64,000 nt of DNA from Rhizobium sp. Root483D2 (GTDB lineage: Bacteria > Pseudomonadota > Alphaproteobacteria > Rhizobiales > Rhizobiaceae). Where the stretch lies: NCBI RefSeq assembly GCF_001426685.1, contig NZ_LMFB01000004.1, positions 111,514-175,513 of the forward strand. The letters are read 5' to 3'. Of this stretch, positions 17,935 to 37,988 are shown one piece after another (positions within the stretch are counted from its first letter, which is position 1; the number at the start of each line of letters is the position of its first letter). Below the pieces are notes generated by a model that was given only the letters and a program-made list of their open reading frames with translations, did no database searches and was not told the origin of the DNA. The position numbers and the translations under genes were made by a program.

Positions 17935-17950
17935 CGGCGGACAAGGATTG

Positions 17951-18077: not shown

Positions 18078-18215
18078 ATGTCACGACGCACACAGTCCGA
18101 TTCCCCTTTTCTTTTCGAGACGATCGAAGGGCCCGATTTCAGCTTCGAACTCGCCGGGCGCCGCGATGGGCTCTGGCCGGTCGCTGGCACGGATGAAGCC
18201 GGACGCGGCCCGCAC
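18078..18215 (+). pseudogene. rnhB: 5-prime fragment of chromosomal rnhB (RNase HII)
   Basis: From the ATG at 18,078 the frame encodes 45 RNase HII residues, ending [13 protein letters not shown], then runs into island sequence and stops at 18,245. The two catalytic residues of the first active-site motif (D39, E40) are here. The next expected residues, [10 protein letters not shown], are found 19.2 kb away at 37,440, in the matching frame. The gene was therefore interrupted after the codons for GRGP. Without the two later catalytic Asp residues this fragment cannot be an active nuclease. GGCC occurs at both junctions (18,207-18,210 and 37,435-37,438), so the exact exchange point is ambiguous within a few bases. 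Confidence 0.95.
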
Positions 18216-18303
18216 TTACCAGCTGGGAATATACGATTACTTTAAACTGTATGATCGCCACGCATTATGGCGTGGTATATATACCATTTGCCTGTACGAT
18301 TAG
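18216..18303. repeat. Left island end: two recombinase-arm-like motifs
   Basis: Copy one (18,216-18,240) begins TTACCAGC and ends ATACGATTAC. Copy two (18,282-18,303) begins TACCATTT and ends TACGATTAG. Both match the inverted copies at the right end. Between them is a hairpin, CCACGC-ATTATG-GCGTGG (18,258-18,275). The arrangement suggests binding sites for two recombinases at each end. Confidence 0.75.
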
Positions 18304-18723
18304 GTTGCGCGAGAAATCACGCGTGCATCAAGCGAAATCTGTTGGTGAGCTTATCTTGCGTCACGACTCCCCGAATAAAATGCGTGGCACATGACAATTA
18401 CATGGTCGTAGTACGGGACGACAGCGCTCAAACGGAGCAACATTACGAGTTGAGGAGGTCGCTTCGGGTTTCATCCTGACGCCTCGCTCCAGTTTCCAGG
18501 CGTTCCTCAAGAGTATTTCCAACGCCTAGCTTTCTCAGATGACAAGCGTGATGGGGTGGTGCGCTATCATTCTGCATTCTACGGGGAATAGTCACTTTTG
18601 GCATAGCCCTGCCGAGGCCTTGGTCTGCAGTCGGCCAAACAGGTCATCTGCTTGCTCTAATAGCGGCAGGCGCACGCCGTTCAAGGAAATAGCACTACGC
18701 CTGCGGCTCTCCAACCGACAATC
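18304..18723. other. Gene-free stretch inside the left island end
   Basis: No reading frame here has a convincing start, length or codon pattern. It separates the end repeats from the stop of the beta-propeller gene. I see no transposase remnant and no clear terminator in it. Confidence 0.6.
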
Positions 18724-20100
18724 CTATCGAGACTTCAAAACGGCATCCTTCGATGGTTTGGCACCTTCGACCAGGATCACGTTGGGAGATGCTGACGCTT
18801 CACCCGCATTGACGATCGCGCGTGTGGGGCTGGTTGCGGATGCCATCGCGGCCCCCTTGGCATCGGTCTTGAAGGCGACGATCGGTTCCGGCTGGCCTTC
18901 GAAGAGCAGCGTGTAAGTGGTGTCCGGCTTCAGCTTGGAAACGCTGACGTCGACGATATCGATCAAACCGAGATTGCGCGAAACGATCATGCCGCTGCCC
19001 TCCATATTCTCTGCGGGCTTGAGCCTGAGGGTGATGTTCTCGGGCATATCCTTTCGCGGCTCCAAGTTTTGACGGCCATCACCGCCCACAACTGCGTCGG
19101 GAACATAGATCAGGGCCTGCGGAGCTTGGCCGGAGGGGATGTGGGCGATCTTCGTCTGCTTTTCGGTGTCGATGACATCGATCGCATCGCCATTCTCCAG
19201 TCCGACATAGATACGGCTGCCGTCTCCGGAGCCCCAGATGCCATGCGGAAGCGCACCGACCGGTATGGTCGAGACCAGTTTGGCTTCATCATCGAGTGTG
19301 TAGACTTTCACGACATTCTCGCCGCCAATGGTCACGTAAGCGAGGGTGCCAGCGGGTGTCTTGGCAAAGGCCAGATGGTTTGTGATCGGGCCGGTATCGA
19401 TAACACCCTTGACCTCGAGGGTTTTGGTATCGATCCGCGTTACCTTGCCGACGTCCTTGTGGGTCAGCCAGGCTTCCTTGCCGTTGGGCGTGACCTGTAT
19501 GAACGGTGAGAAGGGCGACACGACCGGGATGGCAGCTAGCAGCTTTTTCGACGCCACGTCGAAGACCTGGACGACGGGGTTGAAGCTGTTTGCGACGAAG
19601 GCGCGCTTGCTGTCGGGCGCGAAGATCGTCATGCCGGGGCCACTCTCCGTCTTGATCCGATCGGTCTCCTTGAACGTCTTGGCGTCGATGACCGACAGGT
19701 AGTCTTCTCCACGCACCGTCACCCAGACATGCTTGCCATCGGGTGTGAAGAAGGCTTCGTGCGGGTTGCGGCCGATATAGGTCACACCCTTCACCTTGTT
19801 GGTCGCGGTATCGATGAAGGTCACCGAATTGGTAACGGTGGAGACAGCAACGATTGTTTTATGGTCCGGCGAGAAGCCGAGACCGTGAACATTGACCTCG
19901 CCCTTGTAGAGAGGGCTCAGGACGTTCGGCCTTGGATCACCCAGCTTGATCAGACCCAGAAGCGTGTTCGTCGAGGGATCGATGACGGAAACCGTGTTGC
20001 TGTTCTGGTCGGCGGCATAGACTCGATCCTTGGCGTCCGGAAGAGCCAGGGCGGGAGATGCTGCGAGTGCGGACATCAGAACCAGGATGGAACGTTTCAT
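18724..20100 (-). CDS. Exported YVTN-type beta-propeller protein
   Basis: The 458-residue protein has a signal peptide (MKRSILVLMSALAASPALA) and repeated propeller blades with the pattern VSVIDPSTNT, VTFIDTATNKV, LSVIDAKTFKE and IDVIDTEKQTK, each about 42 residues apart. This is the YVTN/cytochrome-d1-like fold, but no heme ligand pattern is evident. A C-terminal beta domain (about residues 345-450) follows. It overlaps the upstream DUF305 gene by four bases (ATGA) and is last in the LysR-led cargo operon. It probably acts in the periplasm; the partner or substrate is unknown. Confidence 0.85.
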   Translation of the reverse strand: MKRSILVLMSALAASPALALPDAKDRVYAADQNSNTVSVIDPSTNTLLGLIKLGDPRPNVLSPLYKGEVNVHGLGFSPDHKTIVAVSTVTNSVTFIDTATNKVKGVTYIGRNPHEAFFTPDGKHVWVTVRGEDYLSVIDAKTFKETDRIKTESGPGMTIFAPDSKRAFVANSFNPVVQVFDVASKKLLAAIPVVSPFSPFIQVTPNGKEAWLTHKDVGKVTRIDTKTLEVKGVIDTGPITNHLAFAKTPAGTLAYVTIGGENVVKVYTLDDEAKLVSTIPVGALPHGIWGSGDGSRIYVGLENGDAIDVIDTEKQTKIAHIPSGQAPQALIYVPDAVVGGDGRQNLEPRKDMPENITLRLKPAENMEGSGMIVSRNLGLIDIVDVSVSKLKPDTTYTLLFEGQPEPIVAFKTDAKGAAMASATSPTRAIVNAGEASASPNVILVEGAKPSKDAVLKSR

Positions 20101-20513
20101 TTTACTGTCTCCGGAGTTGCGGCAGGTTGATTGCCCGACTTATCAAGCATCGCGTGCATCAGTTGAATCTCATAGGTCTGCTCGGTGATGATCGATTGAG
20201 CGAGGTTTCGAATTTGCGGGTCTTTCGTGCTGACCAGAACCGCCTTGGCCATATCGACAGCGCCCTGATGATGCGGGATCATTTGCGCCAGGAAGTCCCT
20301 GTCCGGATTTCCGCTCTCCGAAACCGACATCATGCCGGCATGCATCTTTTCCATTGCAGCCTTCATGCTTGCCGAGAACGCATCTGCTGTTTCATTCTTG
20401 CCCGCCGGTTCGGGCTGATGATGCTGGTGCTGCTGTTCTGACAAGGCGGGGCTGAGGGAACAGAGGCTTATGCCGACCGCCGTTGCGATAAGAACTGTGA
20501 CTTTGGCGCGCAT
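20097..20513 (-). CDS. DUF305 periplasmic protein
   Basis: The 138-residue protein has a signal peptide (first 25 residues), a His-rich spacer (EQQHQHHQPEP) and a DUF305 domain with the characteristic DFLAQMIPHHQGAVDMAKAVL and a later IITEQTYEIQLMHAM helix. DUF305 proteins are ferritin-like helical bundles that often accompany copper or other metal resistance genes. The His and Met content (MHAGMM, MIPHH) fits metal binding. It is cotranslated with the propeller gene through a four-base overlap and follows the DsbA-like gene after 125 bases. Metal identity is not shown by the sequence. Confidence 0.88.
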   Translation of the reverse strand: MRAKVTVLIATAVGISLCSLSPALSEQQHQHHQPEPAGKNETADAFSASMKAAMEKMHAGMMSVSESGNPDRDFLAQMIPHHQGAVDMAKAVLVSTKDPQIRNLAQSIITEQTYEIQLMHAMLDKSGNQPAATPETVK

Positions 20514-20638
20514 GAGGTCTTCCTTTCGACAATAATGGGTAAGAACCCCTGGAGGCGGGATTCATTCCCACGTGACGGACAATCCGTGCTCACGTTCCCG
20601 TGACTGGGCTCCGGGTGCTCTGCATCGGGCCTTTCTGA

Positions 20639-21256
20639 TCAGCCGGCTTGTGCGGCGGCGACAGCATCGGAGACCTCGTCGAAACTGCGCTTCACTTCGA
20701 CCCGCTCGCCGTTGACAAAGAACGATGGCGTGCCGGCCACACCGAACTTCTGACTGGCCTCGGTCGTCACGGCATTGAGCTTGTCCAGATAAGCCTGATC
20801 GGCAACAGCGCGATCGAAGCCCGCCCGGTCGATGCCCATGCTAGCGGCGATCTCGCGCAGCACATCCTCGGCGTTTGAGGCCGAAGCAATCTCATCGGAC
20901 TTCGACATAAAGGTCGATACCGTCTCATCGAATCTGTCCTGGCCCCGCGTATTCGCCAGCATGAAGATGACGGCATCCGCCGAATTTCGCACGAAGGGCC
21001 GGTAGGCGATCTTCAGCTTGCCTGGTGCCACATACGTCTCCTGCAGCTTCGGCAAGACTTTTTCATGGAAGTCGATGCAGTGACTGCAAGTCGGGGAGGA
21101 ATAGACGACCAGCGTGACCGGGGCCGTCCTCACTCCAACGATACTGTCCTGGAACACAGCCGGATTCATCAAGCCCTGCACGGGGTCGGCCTTGGCGGAC
21201 CCTACACATCCCAACGCAATGCCGCCGACGATCACGGCCATAATACGAAGCGTCAT
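20639..21256 (-). CDS. DsbA-like periplasmic thiol-disulfide protein
   Basis: The 205-residue protein has a signal peptide ending SAKA and a thioredoxin fold of the DsbA/DsbG class: VTLVVYSSPTCSHCIDFHEKVLP with active-site CSHC near residues 57-60, a helical insertion, and the cis-proline loop VAGTPSFFVNGERVE near the C-terminus. Such proteins make, break or shuffle disulfides in secreted partners. Likely partners are the co-encoded DUF305 or propeller proteins, though both contain few Cys, so another target is possible. It sits between the TDT exporter and DUF305 genes on the same strand. Confidence 0.85.
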   Translation of the reverse strand: MTLRIMAVIVGGIALGCVGSAKADPVQGLMNPAVFQDSIVGVRTAPVTLVVYSSPTCSHCIDFHEKVLPKLQETYVAPGKLKIAYRPFVRNSADAVIFMLANTRGQDRFDETVSTFMSKSDEIASASNAEDVLREIAASMGIDRAGFDRAVADQAYLDKLNAVTTEASQKFGVAGTPSFFVNGERVEVKRSFDEVSDAVAAAQAG

Positions 21257-21319
21257 ATCTTCTCCTGCTCGGTTCGAGAAAACACTCCGACATGGGCAGA
21301 CGCCGGAGTGTTTCGATCA

Positions 21320-22462
21320 TCAGTCTGCCTTGAGGCAGGGCGCGATAAAGAGCGAGCGGTCGAGTGCACCCTTGATCGTCTTGGCCGCAACCAGCAGCCA
21401 CATGCAGGCAAGGGCAGTGACCAGAACCTCTCCGAAAACTGCGATGGCCGACATTGGCACCATCGTCGACAGACGAAGCGTGGCCACGGAAAACACGCCG
21501 AGCGGGAAGGTGTAGCCCCACCAGCCGATGTTGAAGGGCAGGCCCTCGCGAAGGTAGCGCAGGGTGATCAAGACGGCAGTGGCCAGCCACCAGATGCCGT
21601 AGCCCCACAGAAGTATCGCGCCCAGGAAACTGGCTCCGCCGAAGGCGGGAGCAACGCTGGCCAATCCATTGGCCGCGAGCACAGCGGGGCCGGTCTGGCT
21701 CATCACGAGAAGGCCGAGGGCTCCGGTTCCGATCGGGCCAAGCGCCAGCCAGCTCGAGGCGGCCATGTTGACATGCGGAAGCTTGTGGACGGCCATGCGC
21801 AGGAACAGGATGACCAAGACGCTCATGGCGAGCGGGACCGAACAGGCCCACAGAACCAGGCTGGTCATCAGCACCGTCAACTGTGTCTGGGCGTCGGCGA
21901 TATGGGGCAGAAGCAGACCACCGCTGACGGCCGCCACCTCGCTGGCCACGATCGGCAGCAGCCAGACTGCGGTCATCTGGTCGATCGAATGCGACTGGCG
22001 GGTGAACATCATGAACGGTATGGCGAGGCCGCAGGCAAGCGACATCGAGACGTCAATCCACCACAGCGTCGTTGCGATTGCTACCGCCGTGTCGCCGATA
22101 TGCGGGATGCCGTAAATCAGAAAGCCATTGATGATCGTGGCGAGGCCCATAGGGATGCAGCCGAAGAACATCGATACGACCGAATGGGAAAAGACCCGGC
22201 TTGCCTCATGGAAATAGAGCGTCCACCTTGCAGCGTAGAGCGCCGTGCAGGTGGCGAACAGCAGGATGTTGAACAGCCAGAGCGCCTGGCCCATGGCGAA
22301 CAGCCACGAATGCCCCGGGAACTGGGCGAGAGCGACAGACAGGATGCCGGTGCCCATCGTGGTGGCGAACCAGTTCGGGGTAAAGTTGCGGATGATATTG
22401 CCCTGCATAGGCACATCTGCGACGTGTGTGATGGGCTTAGTGGTGGCAACAACCCGTTGCAT
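21320..22462 (-). CDS. TDT/SLAC1 family exporter (tellurite/dicarboxylate/sulfite type)
   Basis: The 380-residue protein has about ten membrane segments and the family entry text FTPNWFATTMGTGILSVAL (residues 27-45 of the chosen frame). Further marks are GCIPMGLATIINGFL and FNIGWWGYTFPLGVFSVAT. The family includes TehA, malate carriers, SLAC1 anion channels and the Ssu1 sulfite exporters. With a CysL/YeiE-like LysR gene heading the operon, sulfite export is an attractive but unproven guess. The ATG at 22,462 (MQRVVATTK) is chosen; TTG or ATG further up to 22,507 is possible. Confidence 0.85.
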   Translation of the reverse strand: MQRVVATTKPITHVADVPMQGNIIRNFTPNWFATTMGTGILSVALAQFPGHSWLFAMGQALWLFNILLFATCTALYAARWTLYFHEASRVFSHSVVSMFFGCIPMGLATIINGFLIYGIPHIGDTAVAIATTLWWIDVSMSLACGLAIPFMMFTRQSHSIDQMTAVWLLPIVASEVAAVSGGLLLPHIADAQTQLTVLMTSLVLWACSVPLAMSVLVILFLRMAVHKLPHVNMAASSWLALGPIGTGALGLLVMSQTGPAVLAANGLASVAPAFGGASFLGAILLWGYGIWWLATAVLITLRYLREGLPFNIGWWGYTFPLGVFSVATLRLSTMVPMSAIAVFGEVLVTALACMWLLVAAKTIKGALDRSLFIAPCLKAD

Positions 22463-22525
22463 GGCTTCTCTCCTGATTATTGAGGAGAAAATACGCGACC
22501 ACGTCAATCAGTTCCAACGCATAGT

Positions 22526-23152
22526 TCAGGATGTTTCAATCGACATTTTCGATTGATTGAGGATTGCGGACAACGTTTCGAAGGCCTCATGCAGACGGTG
22601 ACGCTGCGTTATCGAGGTATTGATCAGCGTCGGGCTCGGATGAGGCGACAGGATCACCTTGATACCGAAACTCTCGAGCAGTTCCATCGCTGCACTCGCC
22701 ACCGATCCCGCGAGAATGGCAACCTCGACGTCCGGCAGCAGCGGTAAGAGGCCAGAAAATTTCTCCTTGCCGTCGCGCCGCTCGCTGGCCGTGATCGACG
22801 TTCTCGTCGCACGGACCCACGGGACCGCATTCCACAGAACGATGTTATCTCTCGATATGCCGGTCTCAGCCAGCGCCTGTCGCAGGTTCTTCGCCGTGCC
22901 GGTCGGGTTATCGATTGAGACGAAGCGGCGGTGGCATTCGACCTCACTTGGCCCGGGTGTCTCGAGGAGGATCAGCAGTCTCGCGTGGACGCCGCCATCG
23001 AATGGATCGAAGTTCGGCACATCCCGGCCGGATGCAAGCTGAAGGCGGTCTCGGTAGTCATTCAGTGCTCGCGTATGCGGTCTGTCGAGTGCGGCCAACC
23101 GCTCGTCGCGACGGTGCTCGTGCCAGAGTGTCTCAGGCCCGCGATAGGTCAT
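22526..23152 (-). CDS. Uracil-DNA glycosylase family protein
   Basis: The 208-residue protein shows UDG-superfamily marks: LLILLETPGPSEVE (motif 1 region), NPTGTAKNLRQAL, WNAVPWVRA and the C-terminal SPHPSPTLINT, corresponding to the HPSP loop that intercalates DNA. The catalytic Asp/His pair of classical family 1 enzymes is not obvious; the motif-1 text fits the family 4/6-like or unclassified branch. It starts one base inside the stop of the LysR gene (TGATG). A base-excision enzyme within a transport and redox operon is unusual; it may answer DNA deamination caused by the same stress. Confidence 0.78.
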   Translation of the reverse strand: MTYRGPETLWHEHRRDERLAALDRPHTRALNDYRDRLQLASGRDVPNFDPFDGGVHARLLILLETPGPSEVECHRRFVSIDNPTGTAKNLRQALAETGISRDNIVLWNAVPWVRATRTSITASERRDGKEKFSGLLPLLPDVEVAILAGSVASAAMELLESFGIKVILSPHPSPTLINTSITQRHRLHEAFETLSAILNQSKMSIETS

Positions 23153-24036
23153 CAGACCTGCTCTGATAGCAGAGTCTCAAACGCATCGGCTGCCTTCGAG
23201 CGATATCGTTCCTTGTGCCGGATCAGGAAGAACGGACGTGGAAGCGGAGGATGGTTGGCCTCGACCAGCATGTTGCTGTTGAGTTCTGTCTGGGCGGCAC
23301 TTCGCGAGGTCAGCGTTACCCCCATGCCCGCTTCGACTGCGCCGAGCACAGCCTCATTCCCCGGCAGAACAATCGCAACATCTAAGGCCTGAAGCTTCAG
23401 CTTCTCTTTGGCCATCATCGCCTCGAAGGCGAGACGCGTGCCCGACCCGGGTTCGCGCAGCACCCATGTCGCATCTGCAAAATCCGCCTTGCCCAGCTTT
23501 TTGCCTTTGGCCCAGGGATGGGTTGGTGAAACAACGATGATCATCTCGTCCGTGGCGATCACGCGTGAGGACAAGGTCGAGCGATCTATCACGCCCTCGG
23601 CCAAACCGAGCTCGACCCGCCCAGTCTCGACAGCATCCGCCACCGCCTCCGTATTGCCGATTGAGACATCAAGACCGAGACCCGGATAATACGCATGAAA
23701 CCTCGCAAGCCGTGACGGCAGCCAATAGGCACCGACGGTCTGGCTGGCCATGACCGACAGATCACCGCGTAACAAACCCGTCAAATCCTTGAGCGCGGTT
23801 TCGGCCGCCTTCGCCTCCGCGAGCACCTGAAGCGCGTGTTCGCGAAAGATCGTTCCCGCCTGGTTGAGAACGATCGAGCGTCCGATCCTGTCGAACAGCG
23901 CTACGCCATGACGTTCCTCCAGCGCGATAATTGCCGCACTGACGGCCGACTGCGTCATGTGCATCGCCTTGGCGGCTTTGGTGATGTGCTGATGGCGGGC
24001 GACTTCGGCGAAGATGCGCAACTGGTCTAGGGTCAT
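23152..24036 (-). CDS. LysR-type regulator heading the left cargo operon
   Basis: The 294-residue protein has the LysR winged HTH (residues 1-60, with LRIFAEVARHQHITKAAKAMHMTQSAVSAAI) and a two-lobed effector domain. Its text (GAYWLPSRLARFHAYYPGLGLDVSIGNTEAV) is like the CysL/YeiE/CbbR branch, whose known members answer sulfite or carbon status. Unusually for LysR genes it is not divergent but is the first gene of the operon, overlapping the UDG gene by one base. It should autoregulate from the gap upstream (24,037-24,612). Confidence 0.9.
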   Translation of the reverse strand: MTLDQLRIFAEVARHQHITKAAKAMHMTQSAVSAAIIALEERHGVALFDRIGRSIVLNQAGTIFREHALQVLAEAKAAETALKDLTGLLRGDLSVMASQTVGAYWLPSRLARFHAYYPGLGLDVSIGNTEAVADAVETGRVELGLAEGVIDRSTLSSRVIATDEMIIVVSPTHPWAKGKKLGKADFADATWVLREPGSGTRLAFEAMMAKEKLKLQALDVAIVLPGNEAVLGAVEAGMGVTLTSRSAAQTELNSNMLVEANHPPLPRPFFLIRHKERYRSKAADAFETLLSEQV

Positions 24037-24612: not shown

Positions 24613-26637
24613 CTAGATCACGCCCCAGCGTCTCAGCGCTGCACCTACCTCCTTGCGAATGTCGTCCGCATGAACACTGAGCAACGCCCCCCAGGCAACT
24701 CGAACCGTGTCGTCCGGCCGATCGGCTTCCGATCCCAAGGCATCTATCCGCGCCGGGTGGGCCTTCAGGACATTTTGCACCTCAGTGACGTTCATAACTC
24801 GTGTCGCTACCAACGTTTTGGCGACTGCGTTGAGGGCATCATTCCTGAGGTCCAGAATAGTCTTTGCCCTCTTAGATTCTGTATCAAGAAGTGCGGTGAC
24901 CGCCTTGCGAAGCCCGATGTCACCGGCACGCAGCCGTGCGAGATCGCGGTCGTCTACCAGATCGATCGCAAGTGTCCCTCCCATCCCGTAACACCCTTCG
25001 ATCCTGGTCGCGAGCGCCGTGGCTCGAGCTAGGTCCGATCGCGGATCGCCCCCCATCTCAGTGAACTCGCCGAAAATCAAGGATTCCGATCCAAGACCTG
25101 CGAGATACATGCATATCTGATCGAGATAGTAAGATCGCGTATTGCTCGAGAACATTGGCGTTCTGAACGCCGCGCCGCCGAGGCTATCCACACCGGTCGC
25201 CAAGACCTTGTCGTTGATCGTTATGCCTTCAAGCTCCATTTTGAGTTCGAGACCGACGATCGCATGTCCCGCTTCATGATACGCGGCGCGCAGCATGTGC
25301 TCTGCAGGAAGGTCTACAAGTGGAGACGCGATCGAGGCTACATGTCCAAACTCAAATGGTTTTCCTTGGCGACGCGCAGTTCGACGACCATTGCGAACAA
25401 GTTGCGCCAGGTCAGCACCGGACATGCCCGTTGTCGAATGCGCGAACCCGTCCTCGTGATCGTCGGGCACAGGTAAGCCGGCATGGAACTGGAATATCTG
25501 CCGACGAGTAGCTGCGTCGGGAAGCGGTATGACAAAATGCTTGTCAAGACGTCCTGGGCGCAGGATCGCGGGATCAATATATTCCGGATGATTCGTTGCC
25601 CCGACGACCACGATGCCACTGCGGCGATCGAAGCCGTCGAGCAACTCCAGAAGTGCGTTGATAACCTGCCGTGTGTAGTCGGCGTTATGGCTATTGTTCA
25701 TTGCCCGGCTGCCAACCGCGTCGAGTTCGTCGATGAAGAGCAACGCCGTCCCTTGTGATCGCGCCTCGCTGAAGCTCTCGCGCATAGCCCGCAACATATC
25801 GTTTAGGTAGCCATTGGCTTGCCACTGCGCCGCCGTCGATACGACGATCGGGATGCCGCAGGTTCTTGCGAGCGCTTCAGCGAAGAGCGTCTTGCCTGTC
25901 CCAGGAGGCCCGGAAATAAGGGCACCGACATCCACGTCGCTCCAAGGTATCAGGCCGGCCTTAAAGTCGTCGAGGTCGCGAGCAAGCTCAAGACCCCATT
26001 CCTTTGCCTCGCCGAGCCCAGTGAGGTCGGCCAGTGTCGGTCCAGTGGACGCCGGCGTGGCCTCCACTTGTGTACGATTTACTGACTCTCTCAGCCGGCG
26101 CAGGGCCGTTTTGACTGGGCGATTGGGTTGAAATGCATATACGAGCCGCGTCCATGTCTCCGACCTGATCATCTCCTCATCAGACGATGTAATCGCATGT
26201 CCGTATCGACGGAATGTCGCTATGATCTGATGCGACGTCGGCGTCGGGATCACCGCAATGACGTCTGCAAACAACCTCAGCTCCTCGTCTACGTCATCCA
26301 GGCTTGAACAAACCAGAATGCTTTTGCCCGCCTCAGCGGCACGACGCTGGATTTCCAATTCTGTCAGTCGGTCTCGTGTGGTGTTTTTCAGCGAACGAAC
26401 GAATGGTTCAGTGTATCCATGTTGATCAAAAACCTGACGAAGGTAGAGGCGGCTGGCGGAGACGAAACTATCGACGGCGTCGGCAGCTTGCACCACGACG
26501 ATGGCAAGGTTCGGTGATCCGGCGCCCGCGTGATGTCGTAGCGCGGCGACCACCTGGCAATAGGCCAGGTGGATCGGCACGGTTAGGTCGGACAGGTCGG
26601 CCGTGTTGTCCGGGGTCCACAAAGACCGACCTCGCAT
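24613..26637 (-). CDS. Soluble FtsH-like AAA+ ATPase with M41 zinc peptidase
   Basis: From the ATG at 26,637 the product has 674 residues: an N-terminal domain without membrane segments (1-205), an AAA+ module (Walker A GPPGTGKT at 243-250, Walker B LLFIDELD at 299-306, arginine finger text ILRPGRLDKH), and a peptidase domain with HEAGH at 454-458 and the likely third zinc ligand D535 in SDLARAT. All catalytic parts of FtsH are present, but the two N-terminal membrane helices of FtsH are missing. It should unfold and degrade cytoplasmic proteins. A TTG at 26,676 would overlap the upstream phosphoesterase gene by 29 bases. The N-terminal domain is probably the substrate sensor. Confidence 0.9.
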   Translation of the reverse strand: MRGRSLWTPDNTADLSDLTVPIHLAYCQVVAALRHHAGAGSPNLAIVVVQAADAVDSFVSASRLYLRQVFDQHGYTEPFVRSLKNTTRDRLTELEIQRRAAEAGKSILVCSSLDDVDEELRLFADVIAVIPTPTSHQIIATFRRYGHAITSSDEEMIRSETWTRLVYAFQPNRPVKTALRRLRESVNRTQVEATPASTGPTLADLTGLGEAKEWGLELARDLDDFKAGLIPWSDVDVGALISGPPGTGKTLFAEALARTCGIPIVVSTAAQWQANGYLNDMLRAMRESFSEARSQGTALLFIDELDAVGSRAMNNSHNADYTRQVINALLELLDGFDRRSGIVVVGATNHPEYIDPAILRPGRLDKHFVIPLPDAATRRQIFQFHAGLPVPDDHEDGFAHSTTGMSGADLAQLVRNGRRTARRQGKPFEFGHVASIASPLVDLPAEHMLRAAYHEAGHAIVGLELKMELEGITINDKVLATGVDSLGGAAFRTPMFSSNTRSYYLDQICMYLAGLGSESLIFGEFTEMGGDPRSDLARATALATRIEGCYGMGGTLAIDLVDDRDLARLRAGDIGLRKAVTALLDTESKRAKTILDLRNDALNAVAKTLVATRVMNVTEVQNVLKAHPARIDALGSEADRPDDTVRVAWGALLSVHADDIRKEVGAALRRWGVI

Positions 26638-26647
26638 TCGTAGGACT

Positions 26648-27436
26648 TTACGCTTGGGCGAGTTCGGCAAGATCAATCACCAGGCTAGGATTGAAGGTTT
26701 TCCGCGATGGCTCGTCGGGATAGCCAAGCGGATTGCACACCACCCGTGTCCTTCCGATCCGGTAGTCGCTAGGGGAATGGATGTGACCATGCACCCACAG
26801 CAGCGGCTCATACTCAAGTATTCGGCGCTCGAACCGCGATGCAAAAGATGGCGTCAGACCATCTCGTAGAAACTGCCGCGGTACTGACATTAGACTCGGC
26901 GCATGATGGCTGACTATGACGGTCGGCGACTTTGGCTGCGACAGGTACACGTTGTCGATATCTACAGCAGCCACTCGGTGCAGGTGCTGGCTTTCCTGTG
27001 GTGTGAATTTTCTAAACGGGGTCTTTGAGAGCTTGATACGTTTGTAATCGTTCAACTCTTCCCGAGCGATGGCCATGGCCAGTCTCGGCTCGTCATACAA
27101 ATCGAAGTCGGTCCATAGCGTCGCGCCGATGAAGCGATAGCCATCGATCAGCACGGCGTCTCCGTTTAGGATGAACAGGTTATCGCAGTTCTCCGCCAGA
27201 CGATATCCGGCTGCCAATCCTTCCTTGATCGACCCGCGATAGTATTCATGATTTCCGGGAACGAAGAGGACCGGCATGAAGGGAGCGACATAATCGCGTA
27301 AAAACAGGAGGCTCGCAGTCACTCCGCCGTCAAAGATGTCGCCAGCACATAAGCAAACGTCCGCTTCGGGAATTGCCATCAATGGGAAGTTCGGGTCCAT
27401 CTCGAGATGGAGATCGGAGAAAACCCAAGCTCTCAT
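26648..27436 (-). CDS. Calcineurin-like metallophosphoesterase
   Basis: The 262-residue protein carries all metal-binding motifs of the family: SDLHLE (D8, H10), AGDI (D33), PGNHEY (N62, H63), VSHHAP and HGHIHS. The enzyme could cleave phosphodiesters of nucleotides, nucleic acids or cyclic signals; the substrate cannot be read from sequence. It overlaps the upstream small gene by four bases (ATGA) and is followed by the AAA+ protease gene after 10 bases, so the three form one operon. It is complete and of usual length. Confidence 0.9.
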   Translation of the reverse strand: MRAWVFSDLHLEMDPNFPLMAIPEADVCLCAGDIFDGGVTASLLFLRDYVAPFMPVLFVPGNHEYYRGSIKEGLAAGYRLAENCDNLFILNGDAVLIDGYRFIGATLWTDFDLYDEPRLAMAIAREELNDYKRIKLSKTPFRKFTPQESQHLHRVAAVDIDNVYLSQPKSPTVIVSHHAPSLMSVPRQFLRDGLTPSFASRFERRILEYEPLLWVHGHIHSPSDYRIGRTRVVCNPLGYPDEPSRKTFNPSLVIDLAELAQA

Positions 27437-27938: not shown

Positions 27939-27984
27939 GTAAAGAAAATTGACATTGGTTTCGGAAACCGGCCTTACGGTTTTC

Positions 27985-28807: not shown

Positions 28808-28830
28808 CAGGGAACATCAACTATTAAGAA

Positions 28831-29490
28831 TCAAGCGCTCTCGATAGCCTTTATCCCGCCTACCAAAATCTCACTCGTCGCCTGAAAGTCGAACGAGTAC
28901 TGAGCGACTGGAGCATAAGAGCGACGGTGGTGCGCAGTGGCACCGTAATCTTTGATCGCTCCGAGATGATGCTTTGTCCCGTAACCCGCATTGCGCTCCC
29001 ACGCATATGCCGGATACCTTGTAGCCAGCCTCGCCATGAGGCCATCCCGCACCGTCTTTGCGATGATAGACGCCGCCGCGATTTGGGGGACTATACTATC
29101 TCCCCTCACAACGGCGGTGCAATTCCCCGTTAAACCGGGTGGCACATCGATCCCATCAATCATTATCGGTGCATCGATCCGCAGTTTCACAACCGCTCGC
29201 CGCATCGCATCCAACGTCGCGTTCCGAATGTTCAGAGCATCGATCACGGCGACAGAATTGGCCGCAATTGCGATCACACAGTTCTTCCTTATCTGCGCGG
29301 TGAGCTCTAGCCGTTTAACAACGGACAGGTTCTTGCTGTCGTCGAGTGCGCTCAATAGCTTGCGCGGGATAACTTGCGGCTCAAACCACACCGCTGCGAC
29401 CACCACAGGGCCCGAGAGCGCTCCTCTTCCGACCTCATCACAACCGATGACCACAGGGTATTTCGATCTGTCTCGTGCGGTGAAAGGCAT
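28831..29490 (-). CDS. rnhB: Island-encoded ribonuclease HII
   Basis: The 219-residue protein is a complete RNase HII, which cuts RNA in DNA-RNA hybrids and starts removal of single ribonucleotides from DNA. The four catalytic acids are visible: D18 and E19 in GCDEVGRGALSGPVV, D112 in MIDGIDVPPG and D131 in [17 protein letters not shown]. It is last in the six-gene recombination operon, overlapping the previous gene by one base. The host rnhB is destroyed by this island, so this copy probably replaces it. It is clearly diverged from the host copy, including at the insertion motif (GALSGP against host GPLAGP). It could also act in the element's own DNA processing. Confidence 0.93.
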   Translation of the reverse strand: MPFTARDRSKYPVVIGCDEVGRGALSGPVVVAAVWFEPQVIPRKLLSALDDSKNLSVVKRLELTAQIRKNCVIAIAANSVAVIDALNIRNATLDAMRRAVVKLRIDAPIMIDGIDVPPGLTGNCTAVVRGDSIVPQIAAASIIAKTVRDGLMARLATRYPAYAWERNAGYGTKHHLGAIKDYGATAHHRRSYAPVAQYSFDFQATSEILVGGIKAIESA

Positions 29491-30179
29491 CAGGTCTTAA
29501 ACTTCTCAGATAGCTTCGTAAGCGCCTGCCCAAAACCAGGCGGAGCGACTTCGAAACTCTCGTTGTAAAGGAGTGCGCCTGAAGTCTCGTCGATGTTGCA
29601 GTGTATATCAATCAAATTTTCGCGAAACTGTTTCACCGCTTCGATCTCGATCTCGGTGAAGCCTACGAGTTCGCCTTCGCTACCGAAGTCGCTGGCCGGG
29701 GCACCGGCGCTAAGTAGCTTGACTGGCTCGAGTCTTTGGAATTCTGCATGCAACAGATCGAGCCGTCGCTTTAGACTACGATTTTCATTGAGTATCCATC
29801 GTACTTGAGCGGCAATCCGTAAATCCTCAATCCCATAAACAAAATTCTCGTCGTCACTTGTCTTTCCAGACTTTTTAGCACCGCTCAGGGTAACGTAAGT
29901 GTGGATGAGCTCCCTGAAGTCCTTTCCTTCGACATTTCTGATTGACTGGGCCTTCGGCACATCGAAGCCAAGTTCCTTGAGTGATCGCGCAATCGCGGCA
30001 ACAGACGTTGCGTCCGACCCGACCGAAAGAAGATGCCGGAGGGTGCTGTACAGGTTACGGAGAGAGTTAAGCCGACGCGTGTTGTCGGTACGCGACACAA
30101 ATTCATTATAAATCTCGTCGAGAGCGTCGCGTTTTTGCGCATCCAGCGGCACCTCGATTTCTGGTTTCCCCTTCACCAT
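29490..30179 (-). CDS. GmtX-like accessory protein of the recombination operon
   Basis: The 229-residue protein has an N-terminal helical domain with an HTH-like segment (SVAAIARSLKELGFDVPKAQSIRN, broken here by family-typical charged residues) followed by DFRELIHTYVTLSG. A central coiled coil (NENRSLKRRLDLLHAEFQRLE) comes next, then an acidic C-terminus. From memory the layout resembles GmtX of Gamma-Mobile-Trio islands, proposed to assist recombination. It overlaps its neighbours by one base on each side, between the helicase and RNase HII genes. No catalytic motif is seen. The GmtX link should be taken as a hypothesis. Confidence 0.55.
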   Translation of the reverse strand: MVKGKPEIEVPLDAQKRDALDEIYNEFVSRTDNTRRLNSLRNLYSTLRHLLSVGSDATSVAAIARSLKELGFDVPKAQSIRNVEGKDFRELIHTYVTLSGAKKSGKTSDDENFVYGIEDLRIAAQVRWILNENRSLKRRLDLLHAEFQRLEPVKLLSAGAPASDFGSEGELVGFTEIEIEAVKQFRENLIDIHCNIDETSGALLYNESFEVAPPGFGQALTKLSEKFKT

Positions 30180-32332
30180 CAGTTCATCTCCTTCATCGAA
30201 TTTAGGTGATGTCGAAGACCGACTTGCCGCCGATATGACATTGGGGGCGACGTAACGGCGTTCTCGAATACGGATCGATCGCCAATCAAGAAAACCTGCT
30301 TCTGCCCTCGACTTACCGCCGTTAGCAGCAACGTTCGATCCATCAGCCTAGACTGCGTGACAGGAACAATGACACGTTCGAATTGGCTGCCCTGGCTTTT
30401 GTGGCATGTAATCGCGTAAGCTAGGTCTATATTCTGAAGGTACTCTCGCGGGATCGTAATTTTTCGCCCACTGAAATCCGCCTCGAGCTCGCGCTCTTGT
30501 GTCTCACCCATGACAGTGCCGAGATCGCCATTCATGATGCCAATGTCGTAGTCGTTGCGTGTGGCTATAATCGGCTCCCCCATAAAGAACCTTCCGCAAA
30601 GGGGCATTTTTCCCCTCCCTGCTAAAGCCTGTAGTTGCCGATTGAATTCGAATATGCCTCCTACCCCACGTTTGACGGAGCCGATAATCTGCGCTTTGCC
30701 GATGCCACCCAATCGGCCGAGCGTGTCCATGACGTGATCAATAACCTCTTCTGGTTTGGCATTGATGAAGGTGACCCCTTCCCTATCATTCCATCCAGCG
30801 AGAAGTTCCGGCCGCCGCCCGGAGCGAATGGCCGCACAGACTTGCGGAATCCCGCTTTCAGCACTTTGCCGCATCACTGTTTTGAGTTCAGTTTTAGGAA
30901 TGCTCGGATCATCGGCGAGCACGTGGAATGTCAGACCGAATCCAATGGGTGGCAGTTGTCCGGTGTCGCCTACCAGCAGCAGTCGGACACCTGGTTTAAA
31001 TTGGGACGTCAACCGGTAGAGCGTTGCGAGATCGATCATCGAGCTCTCATCTAGGATCAGCAAGACGCCGTCGCCCAAATCAATCTCGCCTCGACCCACC
31101 TGGATCAAGAGCCCTGCGATCGTGAAAGCTGGACGGCCCGTGGCCTCCCTCATGCGCTGTGTCGCACGGCCAGATAACGCAGCCTGATGCACCACAATAT
31201 CCATCTTTTCCGCGACTTGGTGAATGGCTTTGAGGACCGTAGTCTTACCAACCCCTGGGCCGCCGACCAGCAACGAGGCACGGTGTAAGAGTGCGGCGTG
31301 GACTGAAAGTCGCTGTTCCACGTTGAGAACATATCCCTCAGAATGTTCGAACTCGTCGAGATCAGCCTCGATCTCGCTGTCCGTCAGTTGGCGTCGAAAG
31401 CTGAGTTGAGGCGCTTGGAATTTGCCCCCGGCCATGGCCGATACTCGATCGGCGCAGAAGCGCTCCATGATATCGCAACCAGCTAAAGCATAGCCATCAC
31501 CGACAGGAACGATTGCGCCAATACTGACAGCATCGACTACAGCAGTTCTTGCTACAGTAACATGGCTCTTCAGAAGACCTTTCGCGATTTTGACGAGCTC
31601 GTCCCCGGACGTCCATGTGTGATTGATTTGGAGCCGTTTTATCAGCGCGGCCTCGATCGCCCCGACACAACGCCGTTTATCATCTACACTGATCCCTATA
31701 CGTTGAGCAGCTTGATCTACGGAATCCCAATTGGCGAACGCGAGCATACGATAGGGGTCACGCTGAAGATGCCAAACCGCGGCGCCAAATGATTTGGCTT
31801 CCTCTATAGACGCAGATGGCACTGGAAGGTCACTGTAGATGGCGATTATCTTTTCAGCGAGCGTAGGCGACAAATCGAGTGACGTAAGCCAGCGATAAGT
31901 ATTTGCCTCTCCGTCGATAGCAAGCCATCCGGACACGAGCACCTCCGCGAGGTCAATACCCACAGCAGGTACAAACGGTGACGGATCACCAGCATCGAGC
32001 AGGTCATAGGTTCCGTGGGCATGTAGGTCCCAAAGCCGCTGAGCTTTCGCAATGCCGATACCCGGGAAGGCTTTGTGTCCGCTCAACGTCTGAATCAAGA
32101 GGCGTCCGGTGGGGCGTTTGGGCGCGGCCGCCCGGACGTAGACCTGACGCCCGTAAGAGGCGTGGACGCGCCAAGCGCCGGTTATTTCCCAGGTCTCACC
32201 GATGATGGGCGCGCGCCCAAGCACGCGCATTTCGTCTATAAAGCGGGTAGCTTTGCCGTCAATGGTCTGTCCCGAAAACACAATCGGCGGCTCAGATCGC
32301 AGAACATCAGTAATCACCACCGACTGGGTCAT
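30179..32332 (-). CDS. RecD2-type SF1B DNA helicase
   Basis: The 717-residue protein has the RecD2 layout: an N-terminal OB-like and helix-hairpin-helix region (residues 75-240, including FPGIGIAKAQRL and RDPYRMLAF), then two RecA-like lobes with Walker A GGPGVGKT at 357-364, ILDESSMIDL at 427-436, LVGDTGQLPPIG and the C-terminal ITCHKSQGSQFERV. Such enzymes move 5-prime to 3-prime on single-stranded DNA. It overlaps the small protein gene by four bases and the 229-residue gene by one. A helicase cotranslated with the recombinases suggests that the element's movement involves strand unwinding or replication. Confidence 0.9.
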   Translation of the reverse strand: MTQSVVITDVLRSEPPIVFSGQTIDGKATRFIDEMRVLGRAPIIGETWEITGAWRVHASYGRQVYVRAAAPKRPTGRLLIQTLSGHKAFPGIGIAKAQRLWDLHAHGTYDLLDAGDPSPFVPAVGIDLAEVLVSGWLAIDGEANTYRWLTSLDLSPTLAEKIIAIYSDLPVPSASIEEAKSFGAAVWHLQRDPYRMLAFANWDSVDQAAQRIGISVDDKRRCVGAIEAALIKRLQINHTWTSGDELVKIAKGLLKSHVTVARTAVVDAVSIGAIVPVGDGYALAGCDIMERFCADRVSAMAGGKFQAPQLSFRRQLTDSEIEADLDEFEHSEGYVLNVEQRLSVHAALLHRASLLVGGPGVGKTTVLKAIHQVAEKMDIVVHQAALSGRATQRMREATGRPAFTIAGLLIQVGRGEIDLGDGVLLILDESSMIDLATLYRLTSQFKPGVRLLLVGDTGQLPPIGFGLTFHVLADDPSIPKTELKTVMRQSAESGIPQVCAAIRSGRRPELLAGWNDREGVTFINAKPEEVIDHVMDTLGRLGGIGKAQIIGSVKRGVGGIFEFNRQLQALAGRGKMPLCGRFFMGEPIIATRNDYDIGIMNGDLGTVMGETQERELEADFSGRKITIPREYLQNIDLAYAITCHKSQGSQFERVIVPVTQSRLMDRTLLLTAVSRGQKQVFLIGDRSVFENAVTSPPMSYRRQVGLRHHLNSMKEMN

Positions 32333-32712
32333 CTGGGAAGCAATCCGGTCGACGCGAGGTGGCTATCAATGTGTTCGTACCTCTGAAGTCGTTTCCGAAG
32401 CTCATGCACCTCGACGCGCGCCGCTATGAGTTGGTTCTCGAGTTGCAGGATACGTTGTGATGCCCATGCAGGAATTTCTGTCTGCGAGTTTTTGACCTGC
32501 GATGGCATTGAAAGGCCTTTAGTCTGCACGGCGCTCGCTATTTTTTCTTGCGCCTCTGGTCGATACAAAAATTGTCGATCAACCCCTGCAACAAGTGCCA
32601 GTGCCGAAAGGTTTACCTTGCCACCGCGACCAGGTATGTTTTCGCAAGAATCCAACCAACCTTGTAGCTTGGCTAAGTTCTGCAAACCGACCTCTTGCGT
32701 CGATAGGGTCAT
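32329..32712 (-). CDS. Small coiled-coil recombination accessory protein (TnpC/VPA1267-like)
   Basis: The 127-residue protein starts with a helical part (LQNLAKLQGWLDSC), then a segment like a short HTH (LSALALVAGVDRQFLYR), and ends with a coiled coil (ILQLENQLIAARVEVHELRKRLQRYE). Position and size match TnpC of Tn554 and the VPA1267-type small proteins found with trio recombinases; these are thought to bind DNA or guide the recombinases. It overlaps the big recombinase gene and the helicase gene by four bases each. The relation is structural and contextual, not a proven homology. Confidence 0.65.
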   Translation of the reverse strand: MTLSTQEVGLQNLAKLQGWLDSCENIPGRGGKVNLSALALVAGVDRQFLYRPEAQEKIASAVQTKGLSMPSQVKNSQTEIPAWASQRILQLENQLIAARVEVHELRKRLQRYEHIDSHLASTGLLPR

Positions 32713-35700: not shown

Positions 35701-35876
35701 AGGCTGGCCACATGTTCGCGCCAAGTCACCGATGCGGATCGGATCGATTCAGAGTTCCATGTTGGAAGAACGCAATAGCGCGTCGAATCGTTTACGAAGA
35801 TGTAGTTACTGGTAATCTTGGAGAGAACCCGTGACGGATTTGCGTGCCAGTTCTCTGTGTGCTCGACATCTATCAT
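32709..35876 (-). CDS. Large tyrosine recombinase (1055 residues, TnpB/GmtZ-like)
   Basis: The catalytic centre lies in the middle of the chain: the first Arg in LLLPIRALQTRLLD (R476 or R481), then HSLR (H678, R681), GHAT (H705) and a Tyr pair at 713-714. The N-terminal 400 residues probably hold arm- and core-binding domains. After the catalytic domain there is a Cys-containing stretch (GGICPNGATLCN and NCALCRYF, about 788-835) that may bind zinc, then a helical C-terminus. This size and Cys region fit VPA1269/GmtZ-type proteins. Overlaps of four bases on both sides bind it into the operon. All recombinase residues are present. Confidence 0.85.
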   Translation of the reverse strand: MIDVEHTENWHANPSRVLSKITSNYIFVNDSTRYCVLPTWNSESIRSASVTWREHVASLTAKSYSLGKTALSNPDPTKQGYSEQVVDLINEILETDEGTSALPLLEAFLLEMRRVSVLPRKEKGFKVSSLRFIEFLFILWKHRLIAFPASQVWAFRESDIPLGRAIEISELHFGDMAEVMTSLTLPLKHPGQGRAMLRFILACSKPFEIGDYDYAVLKLFEPFALKLNHQTLVYGITDQVHARQRMVYHGNREAELALPQSYREIFIRQKGEDRSSAEFRWAIGRGSSRVEKWREQLADYVASLPNRVGLRYEISHLNLVLDYVIATQDVPDEPLRYCRRDYTAAVSIGSFQEETRNISERRASGSLRNIARFFDWVISTYGSDEDGIPYREYANPIDIDDLPPQATSKGQTDRDAIPLRFLRMIREIIEGDDYAWPKTIRSDYLEYTDPKTGQRTRVWSPVRAEFILLRLLLPIRALQTRLLDSGEGDPEIWSTEQGWQPNTGSLAPTDKTGQRELGFIRRIWDHHSGRTFNGLFITTNKTQDREELFTENGYEIPWENADVIQLFCRLRDWQVRYNPIVRAISRADLKSDKKLVVSADLAKRLYGLHFLFRDAADRDFPHEPPTEGRLHGFWALLIAELERRLEEAGQTNSDGSKIQLIRRHKASGVPKTPIFDMHSLRVSGLTAFIDAGVPIHILSEFVAGHATILMTLYYHKPGAAEITRVLDSALEEMSTNESQNWAAFLKNQPTELIHEIAAYNSDEGLRAAQSTQSSLWSPMAGGICPNGATLCNVGGPLLNEGKKVYAPVPGGSKNCALCRYFVTGPAFLGGLVAAFNQTGGQIRELFGFLEENQTRRRAIIAEHGTLPTDRKVSAELTTVDEAVQSTQSKLDIFSQTWVSQLRLIQKIEKIIETHANDNGKNTLVLNGQLRDLSISLEESTEFEMWDRICQSSTFYPNVDARLPAIRRARMFDVMFKRNGRPSVFATLTDQQMIVIGNEAANLLRSMIGSPRLEDVLAGRLALDDLGIAPQFEEFIQQRVDGGDVAAIGYEKRVAG

Positions 35877-37306
35877 GCTGCAATCAGCCGGTTGAAGCCA
35901 TCGTATTTTTCTCTCTCAGCGATCGCAATCCGCCCCGCTTCCAGAGCGACGTTTACCTCTGATGCATCGGGAAGCGTGTAGACACCCTGCGAGACGACGG
36001 ATTTGTGGTGCATGCAGACCTGTGTAATCTTGTCCGAAATGCCGGCACACTCCAACGAGTGGCCATATGCATGCCGGAATCCATGTGACGATGTACCTTC
36101 TTCTTTGTTCACCCTAACCCCGATGCGATCCATCGCCGCAGCATGGTTGTCGTAGTAAGCCGACAAGGTATACATTGACCCTTTGCGCTTGCTGTTGCTC
36201 AGGTTGACCAGCAAGTAGGGATGATCAAGATTAGTGGGTAAAACCTCTCGAACGTACGCTTGATAAAGTTTCCAGAACAACAGGCCCCAATACGTTGGAA
36301 ACCAACGAACGACCGCATAATAGTGCGGTGCGCCGACATCGAGCATCAATTCTTTCCATCCCGCCGCCTTTTTGTCGGTTCGCTGGTTACGGGGCTGGAG
36401 CCCATACCTTTCTCGCAGAAACTCCGTTCTCGTCGTATGGACGATTTCACCTGTCAGAGGGCTCATATAGCTGAACCGGCCTAACTCGGGATGATAAAGC
36501 CGCACCTCAGCTGAACCGGGAACCGATTTGCTTTCAAGCACGTCCGTTACGAAGAGGTGGAAAGGTTCGCTTGCGCGCAGTCCTCCGTACCTTTGCAAGA
36601 TGCAGATCATCATGTCTCTGAGATGATAGCGATCAGAGAGACGCTTGCCTTTTCCAGCTTTTTTGTATCCTGACGACAAGAGGGCATCGAACGCCTCCGG
36701 CGGAAACCGCGGAGGCGCACGGTCGCTGACCTTTGGCGAATCAGGAGACACGACTGCTCTTGCCCGAGTGGCCTGTTTTCTTGCAACTTTAGAAACGCCA
36801 AGATGTTTTAGGAGCGAGTTCTGATTACGGATGTCGAGCTTCCGGTATGCAGCTAGCCGTTGTTGAAACGTATTTTCGACTATTGGGTTAAGAGCCTCAG
36901 CGCCGTACTTTCTGGCGCAAAAGTCAGAAAACACGTTAACGAAAGAAATGGTTTCAGAAACCCGCGACCAGCTCGCTGGAGGCCAGAAGAGACCGGAAGG
37001 GTCGTCTCCATCGTCCGCTACAGTGCCGGATAGAAGTGCCTGCACAAAATCGCTAAGGTAAGTGATTGGCGGGTCCGGACGATTAGCATCACGGACGGCA
37101 TACAAGTAATCATATAGACAGCCAATTGCTCGACAGGCCTTTGTTTGCCAAGCCAGGCTCTTGTTTCGGTTCGCTTCCGTCAGAAAAAATTCTAACAGGG
37201 GGCACAGTGGACCGCCATCCGTCACAAGGATGCGCATGCCTCCGTGCCTACCGTGCGTGGGAAGAGTGACCGCATCATGAAATCTGGGAGTGATCAGCTT
37301 TCTCAT
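35873..37306 (-). CDS. Tyrosine recombinase, first gene of the island operon (TnpA/GmtY-like)
   Basis: The 477-residue integrase has the full catalytic set: Arg in YGGLRASEPFH (R244), HGFRH (H408, R411), the later His in CMHHK (H433 or H434) and Tyr443 in SQGVYT. The N-terminal half is the DNA-binding core domain. It starts about 100 bases from the right island end, so its promoter lies among the end repeats and recombination could alter its expression. It overlaps the large recombinase gene by four bases. Together with the next genes it forms a trio-type module that inserts at one site, here rnhB. Confidence 0.88.
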   Translation of the reverse strand: MRKLITPRFHDAVTLPTHGRHGGMRILVTDGGPLCPLLEFFLTEANRNKSLAWQTKACRAIGCLYDYLYAVRDANRPDPPITYLSDFVQALLSGTVADDGDDPSGLFWPPASWSRVSETISFVNVFSDFCARKYGAEALNPIVENTFQQRLAAYRKLDIRNQNSLLKHLGVSKVARKQATRARAVVSPDSPKVSDRAPPRFPPEAFDALLSSGYKKAGKGKRLSDRYHLRDMMICILQRYGGLRASEPFHLFVTDVLESKSVPGSAEVRLYHPELGRFSYMSPLTGEIVHTTRTEFLRERYGLQPRNQRTDKKAAGWKELMLDVGAPHYYAVVRWFPTYWGLLFWKLYQAYVREVLPTNLDHPYLLVNLSNSKRKGSMYTLSAYYDNHAAAMDRIGVRVNKEEGTSSHGFRHAYGHSLECAGISDKITQVCMHHKSVVSQGVYTLPDASEVNVALEAGRIAIAEREKYDGFNRLIAA

Positions 37307-37316
37307 TCAAACCCTC

Positions 37317-37430
37317 AATCGTATAAAACGTATAATGGTAAGCTGTGCAAAAAGGCTCACACTTATCCACTAATTGCAAGGCCTTTTTGCAATTTTTTTG
37401 AGGGTAATCGTATAGACACCTAACTGGTAA
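37317..37430. repeat. Right island end: two inverted copies of the left-end motif
   Basis: Read on the minus strand, the outer copy (37,404-37,430) begins TTACCAGT and ends ATACGATTAC. The inner copy (37,317-37,341) begins TTACCATT and ends TACGATT. They mirror the left-end copies at 18,216-18,240 and 18,282-18,303. The recombinase operon promoter must lie in or beside them. Confidence 0.8.
37347..37399 (+). terminator. Nested hairpins with T-run at the right island end
   Basis: GCAAAAAGGC (37,347-37,356) pairs with GCCTTTTTGC (37,381-37,390), and AATTGCAA (37,372-37,379) pairs with TTGCAATT (37,387-37,394); the two stems exclude each other. Seven Ts end at 37,399. On the plus strand this should stop transcripts leaving the island toward the rnhB remnant. 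Confidence 0.6.
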
Positions 37431-37988
37431 TAAGGGCCACTCGCCGGTCCGGTCGTTGCCGCCGCCGTCATCCTCGATCCCGACAATATCCCCGAAGGCT
37501 TGAACGACAGCAAGCAGCTGTCGATTGCCCGCCGCGAGGAACTGTTCGATCTTATCCTCGCCTCTTCCATCGTCTCCATCGCCTCGTCCGGTGCCGGCCG
37601 GATCGACGGTACGGATATCCGCAAGGCGAGCCTGGATGCGATGCGCCGGGCGGTGCATGGCCTGTCCACCGCGCCTGCCCTGGTGCTCGCCGACGGCCGC
37701 GACATTCCGCCCGGCCTTGCCTGTCTCGGCAAGGCCGTCGTCAAGGGCGATGCCCGCTCGCTGTCAATTGCGGCGGCCTCGATCATTGCCAAAGTGTCAC
37801 GCGACCGGATGATGACCCGCGCCCATCTGGTGTTCCCGGCCTATGGGTTTTCCACCCATGCCGGCTATGCCACGCAGCGCCACCGCAATGCCATCGACGA
37901 TCACGGCCCCTGCCCGCTGCATAGAATGAGCTTCAGGCCGCTGCGCCAGGACGGCGTTGACATGCCGGACGAGGAACTGCAGGGCTGA
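37431..37988 (+). pseudogene. rnhB: 3-prime fragment of chromosomal rnhB (RNase HII)
   Basis: From GGG CCA CTC GCC at 37,434 the frame reads [20 protein letters not shown] and continues to a normal C-terminus. It joins the fragment at 18,078 exactly in frame, with the GP codons shared. It holds the two later catalytic Asp residues (in [10 protein letters not shown] and [18 protein letters not shown]) but lacks the Asp-Glu pair and any start signal; an ATG-free run follows the island edge. It cannot act as a nuclease. Codon use is host-like, and no further mutation is evident, which suggests a recent insertion. Confidence 0.95.

Follow-up and report, generated by a model that had tools for sequence, protein, structure and literature searches.

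How can a mobile element settle in the active-site codons of a widely conserved gene, a site that should otherwise be costly to enter? This question was raised by a stretch of 64,000 nucleotides from Rhizobium sp. Root483D2 (contig NZ_LMFB01000004.1, positions 111,514 to 175,513; the whole stretch is called the window here), in which rnhB, the gene for RNase HII, is split by an inserted element that has a complete RNase HII gene of its own. The insert is a Gamma-Mobile-Trio (GMT) element, and its rnhB is the last gene of the recombinase operon. We consider it probable, on sequence grounds, that the element is a GMT island of an "insert-and-rescue" type, in which a resident substitute makes insertion into a conserved gene harmless.

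The host gene is interrupted at 18212/37434, within the active-site codons DEAGRG|PLAGPV, and its two pieces are in frame and 19.2 kb apart. On the left side the DEAGRG motif starts at 18192 and the core GGCCCG occupies 18207-18212, with foreign sequence after it; on the right side the core reads GGGCCA (37434-37439), LAGPV starts at 37440 and the rnhB stop lies at 37988. The four acids that we take to be catalytic in RNase HII, from their presumed positions, are divided two and two, with DE in the N-terminal part and the D of ADGRD and the D of KGDAR in the C-terminal part. An earlier reading made from the sequence only (hereafter the sequence-only reading) had described just this in-frame cut with divided acids, and the coordinates and motifs bore it out. 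The search for PF01351 in the Root483D2 genome (6.04 Mb, 44 contigs, 99.95% complete) gave exactly two matches, the island copy and the C-terminal part of the host gene; neither a third rnhB nor the second intact chromosomal copy that the earlier reading had considered was found there. Each of the 30 relatives searched, 18 of them in the same genus, had one RNase HII match. The motif DEAGRGPLAGPV was uninterrupted in 17 of the 18 same-genus genomes. For the 18th (G1082), the rnhB contig (C84; L189, L248) stops 8 bases short of the insertion core, no island-type RNase HII match was found in the assembly, and 20 contigs, viewed in part, did not settle the site. The C-terminal part in the window was undecayed, with a ratio of nonsynonymous to synonymous substitution (dN/dS) of 0.06-0.16 against 7 intact relatives, versus 0.06-0.18 among those relatives, so the insertion would be recent, or the gene restored at times.

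The RNase HII inside the element passed both PF01351 (128.4 versus 25.8 bits) and NF000595 (208.5 versus 167), and alignment to the RNase HII chains 7uwe and 7uwh placed all four acids in it, which upheld the claim of a full enzyme on the island. Read from the right end inward, the order is gmtY, gmtZ, a VPA1267-like gene, a RecD2-like helicase gene, gmtX and rnhB, and since all five junctions overlap by 1-4 bases these genes, rnhB included, appear to form one operon. The order gmtY-gmtZ-gmtX is thus kept, with the VPA1267-like and RecD2-like genes intervening between gmtZ and gmtX. GmtZ matched NF047926 over 278-1018 with an E value of 2.2e-159, at a bit score under the cut-off. Domain scans found integrase domains only in GmtY and GmtZ, unlike an RIT element with its three adjacent tyrosine recombinases. 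The G+C content is 55.3% over 18211-37433 versus 60.5-60.8% in the flanks. The two inward ends of the element align with a score of 39 (shared core included), and none of 1000 single-base shuffles of the left end scored as high.

Is the split an accident of this strain? A GmtZ profile was run against a collection of 84,980 species, and the best 80 of 168 relatives were retained. The best relative, the sole near one across the sets searched, was found in Microvirga lupini Lut6, with GmtY 53% identical and GmtZ 46% identical in the best segment, identities that make the link between the two elements an old one. There the RNase HII gene again directly follows gmtX (NF040692, 73.8 bits); the protein is 57% identical to the window island copy, and its ATG, which we chose at 14321, overlaps the gmtX stop. 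The M. lupini host rnhB is broken at the same codon, with the C-terminal part at L018:6992-7522 and the N-terminal part in L102 near 372 (LDEVGRGP), about 74 kb apart, and the orientation is the same as in the window. The only two PF01351 matches of that genome are the island copy and the C-terminal part. In both genomes a radical-SAM gene (PF04055, presumably of the PA0069 type) precedes rnhB, as does moaB by eye. The split is therefore not a chance event, since it recurs at the same codon in M. lupini. In the window and in the diverged M. lupini element alike, the substitute gene comes after gmtX and its start overlaps gmtX, an arrangement shared across two genera that makes the substitute look resident in the element. 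In a scan of 100 loci, limited to the span fetched for each, only the window and L018 had an RNase HII on the element side of gmtY, and both known GMT operons that end in an RNase HII gene lie in rnhB, an association raised by the sequence-only reading. As separate observations, a Crocinitomicaceae metagenome-assembled genome has a complete RNase HII match (L046:2442-2978) some 5 kb from a GMT, on the side away from the element, and this gene is probably the host's own; two plasmid loci chosen for their RNase HII (L011 of Parasedimentitalea and L012 of Acidiphilium) had no gmtY in the stretch fetched.

The arrangement is not confined to rnhB. For 95 loci in which gmtY had been placed (some positions enter twice), the 3 kb of flank on the gmtY side was compared with the remainder of the locus, and long two-copy matches were obtained only for the window, L018 and L056, a Rhodocyclaceae metagenome-assembled genome. 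Short matches of 23 and 36 residues were also seen at L064 and L096. In L056 the element splits a srkA-type kinase gene, with the C-terminal part (7624-7998) beside gmtY and the N-terminal part at 18412-19269, and a complete kinase (17352-18338; NF008738, 490.9 bits with a cut-off of 194) lies inside the element; its relatives in the plasmid collection, 44% identical, are annotated srkA. A search with this island kinase gave two further cases, L027 (genome G1076, all pieces on contig C25) and L047 (Herminiimonas contaminans, pieces on two contigs and in opposite orientation). In all three, srkA is cut at HGDC|H.GN and a complete SrkA-type kinase passing NF008738 is present. Together with a fourth element of this type in Pseudoduganella guangdongensis (L065), their GmtY proteins are 68-76% identical to one another and 35-38% identical to those of the rnhB lineage. 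The island SrkA copies are 73-75% identical to one another versus 56-62% to the three host N-terminal parts, which are 70-75% identical among themselves and 65-73% identical to the intact srkA of L065. Because the island kinases are closer to each other than to the host N-terminal parts, the substitute seems to form a separate lineage that moves together with the element. An element within a conserved gene and with a complete substitute inside was thus seen in the window and L018 (rnhB) and in L056, L027 and L047 (srkA), not in L065. The central claim of the sequence-only reading, that the element splits rnhB and carries a substitute, accordingly gained from the resident-looking gene, the recurrence at the same codon and a second GMT lineage with another gene. 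That reading had also weighed related islands inserted elsewhere with the substitute: none was seen for rnhB, and one of the four elements of the srkA lineage (L065) is such a case.

These observations suggest a mechanism in which the recombinase would pick DNA coding for a catalytic motif of a widely conserved gene (rnhB, or srkA in the second lineage), a site that many hosts would offer. Insertion would destroy the gene, and the diverged resident copy carried by the element, if it works in the window strain, would supply the lost function, so that insertion would cost little. The target core at the P codon is absent from island-type RNase HII, where GRGPLAGPV is replaced by GRGAL[SC]GPV (6 island-type copies), and a substitute of the rnhB lineage may in this way escape being a target itself. 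A similar recoding at the srkA core was considered and dropped: the 5 island-type copies, that of genome G1241 (described below) included, all have a Gly codon other than GGC there, which given codon use is about a 1-in-20 event, and 1 of 4 comparison copies also lacks GGC.

What became of the substitute where the element is gone may be seen in other genomes. With a profile of the island-type RNase HII, 25 of 298 genomes of the M. lupini family (M. lupini included) scored 302-405 bits, and the next scored 207. In all of the other 24 the island-type enzyme is the sole PF01351 match, unlike the RNase HII of the rest of the family. These genomes are probably Methylobacterium, because one of the 24 copies is identical to that of Methylobacterium bullatum (L006). 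At 15 of 20 such loci fetched (L151-L170), the island-type gene lies tail to tail with the radical-SAM gene, within 0.5 kb, which is the position of rnhB and the orientation of the island copy; at the remaining 5, the radical-SAM gene is 3.5 and 5.1 kb away in two and was not seen in three. A search of the 20 loci and of L006 for remains of the original rnhB gave no match in the weak range (E 1e-8 to 1). In the tree, in which bootstrap is not fully settled and both island branches are long, a single clade (100/99) apart from the host genes unites the window island, the M. lupini island and the chromosomal copies, which nest in the order given. Most simply, these data would mean that a GMT element was lost and its substitute stayed behind as the only RNase HII. 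A comparable case for srkA is G1241, in which an island-type SrkA (79-80% identical to the L056 island copy) lies beside a remnant of srkA on the opposite strand that covers roughly its final 80 residues; the 39 kb fetched gave no match to a GMT protein. The SrkA survey covered 300 genomes of the order of L056 and gave matches with E values of 1e-30 or lower in at least 182 of them, and among the matches listed none of 8 odd genomes had a split srkA without a full copy. Six candidates for a split srkA (G1184, G1267, G1362, G1238, G1105 and G1395) were rejected as gapped matches within one open frame, and G1255 as a match at contig ends. The likely fossils, 24 genomes for rnhB and G1241 for srkA, suggest that lock-in can follow, in that lineages losing the element may keep the substitute as their only copy; the element was not seen beside the gene there.

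Several findings weigh against insertion and rescue. Only two rnhB-type elements are known, and their operons differ, with no recD2-like or VPA1267-like match in L018. The L018 gmtZ contains a run of N, and the terminal repeats in M. lupini are weak, in that the best alignment starts inside the element and is reached by 31 of 1000 shuffles. The window island copy has GGGCCC nine bases past the lost core, and its immunity is a guess. Most GMT loci show no pair of split gene and substitute, within flanks that stop at 10 kb. The C-terminal parts of the kinases separate less clearly, island versus host being 73-79% identical and host versus host 76-88%. In L065 the element and its kinase lie between other genes and the host srkA is intact on another contig, so an element need not sit in the target gene to carry the substitute. 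The chromosomal island-type copies might have been the source of the island gene and not its remnant, although the order in the tree favours a remnant.

The sequence-only reading had gone further and held that loss of the element is costly, an addiction by replacement. As a rival explanation, this would mean that selection acts mainly through the loss of RNase HII from cells that shed the element. Such a dependence would be in keeping with a split gene that should not work, with the 24 genomes that have the island-type enzyme only, and with the substitute SrkA adjoining a decayed srkA in G1241. However, the core and the frame are kept at both junctions, so precise excision should rebuild rnhB, and the claimed cost of loss is not supported in that form; the cell would come to depend on the substitute only if the element were deleted or the split gene decayed. 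The undecayed C-terminal part in the window and the lack of a GMT seen beside the substitute in the likely fossils argue in the same direction, and many bacteria survive without RNase HII. We therefore hold addiction to be unlikely as the main effect. The island enzyme might instead serve the element, for example by removing ribonucleotides or RNA-DNA hybrids at excision and copying, with the site in rnhB a coincidence. Although the last place in a recombinase operon that also has a RecD2-like helicase would suit such a role, the restriction of element-side RNase HII, among the 100 loci, to the two elements sitting in rnhB speaks against it, as do the kinase carried instead by the srkA lineage and the RecD2-like genes near many GMTs without RNase HII, and we find this quite improbable.

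A rescue after the fact, in which rnhB was broken before the host or the element acquired an unrelated RNase HII, would explain why the tree places the substitutes in a different lineage from that of the host genes. It is very doubtful, given the same gene, the same place after gmtX and the same overlapping start in two diverged elements of distant genera, the island SrkA copies that are more alike than they are to the host N-terminal parts, and the SrkA carried by the L065 element while the host gene is intact. The genome is a draft in 44 contigs, and an assembly or chimera artefact might be suspected for that reason, but both junctions lie within one 180-kb contig and the same split codon was found in an independent genome, which leaves such an artefact a negligible chance. 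Returning to insertion and rescue, we lean towards a broader proposition: that GMTs evolved this strategy more than once, targeting active-site DNA of conserved genes and bringing a full-length substitute from which the target site is gone, and in this way gaining access to sites where insertion would normally carry a cost. After decay of the element the substitute would permanently displace the original. Candidates for such displacement are rnhB in a clade of the M. lupini family (probably Methylobacterium) and srkA in at least one lineage of the order of L056.

Features of the split rnhB locus and of the inserted element (window coordinates)
Feature	Position	Strand	Basis or remark
Host rnhB 5' part (MSRRTQ...GTDEAGRGP)	18078..18212	+	ATG at 18078, open to the break, in frame with the C-terminal part
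GMT element, 19.2 kb	18213..37433	.	Delimited by the split gene and by comparison with the M. lupini element
Left terminal inverted repeat	18213..18240	.	Local alignment with right end, core included
Cargo: beta-propeller, DUF305, DsbA-like, SLAC1-type channel, UDG-superfamily and LysR genes	18724..24036	-	Domain scans
Cargo: FtsH-like AAA/M41 protease, calcineurin-like phosphoesterase, weak DUF6634-match protein	24613..27771	-	Domain scans
193-aa open reading frame, by eye a repeated helix-turn-helix protein	27949..28530	+	No Pfam hit
Substitute RNase HII, complete, motif GRGALSGPV	28831..29490	-	All four acids; PF01351, NF000595
gmtX	29490..30179	-	NF040692 79.4 bits, cut-off 40; stop overlaps rnhB start (TGATG)
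RecD2-like helicase	30179..32332	-	TIGR01448 E 1.5e-100, 337.4 bits, below cut-off 500; Pfam
VPA1267/DUF6262-like small protein	32329..32712	-	NF040697 E 6.6e-7, PF19776 E 2.1e-6, both below cut-off
gmtZ integrase, 1055 aa	32709..35876	-	NF047926 531.9 bits, cut-off 600; PF13009
gmtY tyrosine recombinase	35873..37306	-	NF040693 415.3 bits, cut-off 340
Right terminal inverted repeat	37404..37433	.	Alignment with left end
Host rnhB 3' part (GGGCCA, LAGPV...ELQG)	37434..37988	+	PF01351 match; in the tree with same-genus rnhB (98/93 fork)

The distribution of GMTs was surveyed in several collections. They are rare in the alphaproteobacterial samples, with GmtY in 1 of 385 genomes of the class (the Root483D2 genome) and GmtZ in 3 of 397 genomes of the order, Root483D2 included. 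In the M. lupini family 7 of 298 genomes had GmtY matches, and no RNase HII match lay near GmtY of the six other family genomes or of the second GMT of M. lupini (L115) in the regions fetched. Viral contigs had no relatives of GmtY or GmtZ, and among the matches listed for plasmids, GMT proteins did not exceed about 36% identity. Island-type RNase HII (E 1e-70), sought in 249 genomes of the Root483D2 order, turned up in Root483D2 itself and in four genomes of one genus (g89) of another family. By eye, conserved genes (glmS, recA, pheS, xthA, tig) adjoin GMTs upstream of gmtY at L048, L049, L074, L070, L069 and L025; GMTs seem to use several kinds of site. Of the cargo, the FtsH-like protease and the small DUF6634-like protein have a related pair (34% and 31% identical) near another GMT (L119:15762-17673), and the AAA part of the protease resembles PADLOC IetA models; the pair is possibly a defence module. 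Rfam gave no match across 15000-42000.

If insertion and rescue is true, a resident substitute would open the most conserved DNA of the cell, active-site codons, as a landing site across distant hosts, and would give foreign versions a simple and testable way to displace core genes. Integrases often spare genes by using a gene end or an intergenic site. Like the window element, the Tn554 family in radC is a multi-gene tyrosine-recombinase transposon inside a conserved gene; unlike it, to our knowledge, that family carries no complete radC. The window element would also be a natural parallel to engineered rescue drives, synthetic gene drives that disrupt a conserved gene and carry a recoded copy; those are man-made, nuclease-based and eukaryotic, and the likeness is an analogy only.

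GMT islands were reportedly described in Nat Microbiol in 2024. As far as the part of PMC12715929 available to us describes them, they share with the window element gmtY, gmtZ and gmtX (NCBIfam names), variable cargo and the form of an island, whereas the window element has two extra genes between gmtZ and gmtX, has a complete substitute for the gene that it splits, and lies in an alphaproteobacterium, where GMTs are rare in the samples. GInt islands (PMC5385486) and strand-biased elements (PMC10214605) likewise have several recombinase genes at one end, site-specific insertion, imperfect repeats and cargo. GInt insertion probably does not fully inactivate its targets, using 3' ends, intergenic sites, or 5' ends with an outward promoter (PMC5385486), and in the accessible portions of the two papers no substitute gene is described for either, unlike in the window element. 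Islands in tRNA genes, which are well documented, also split a gene whose function island sequence restores, but on the evidence of the portion of PMC4383910 at hand they restore the split gene itself, while the window has a separate, diverged, full-length replacement gene. No description of such a separate substitute for a split gene was met in a narrow literature search that lacked most subscription papers. GMT elements as such are already known; what appears to be new here is the carried full-length substitute for the split gene.

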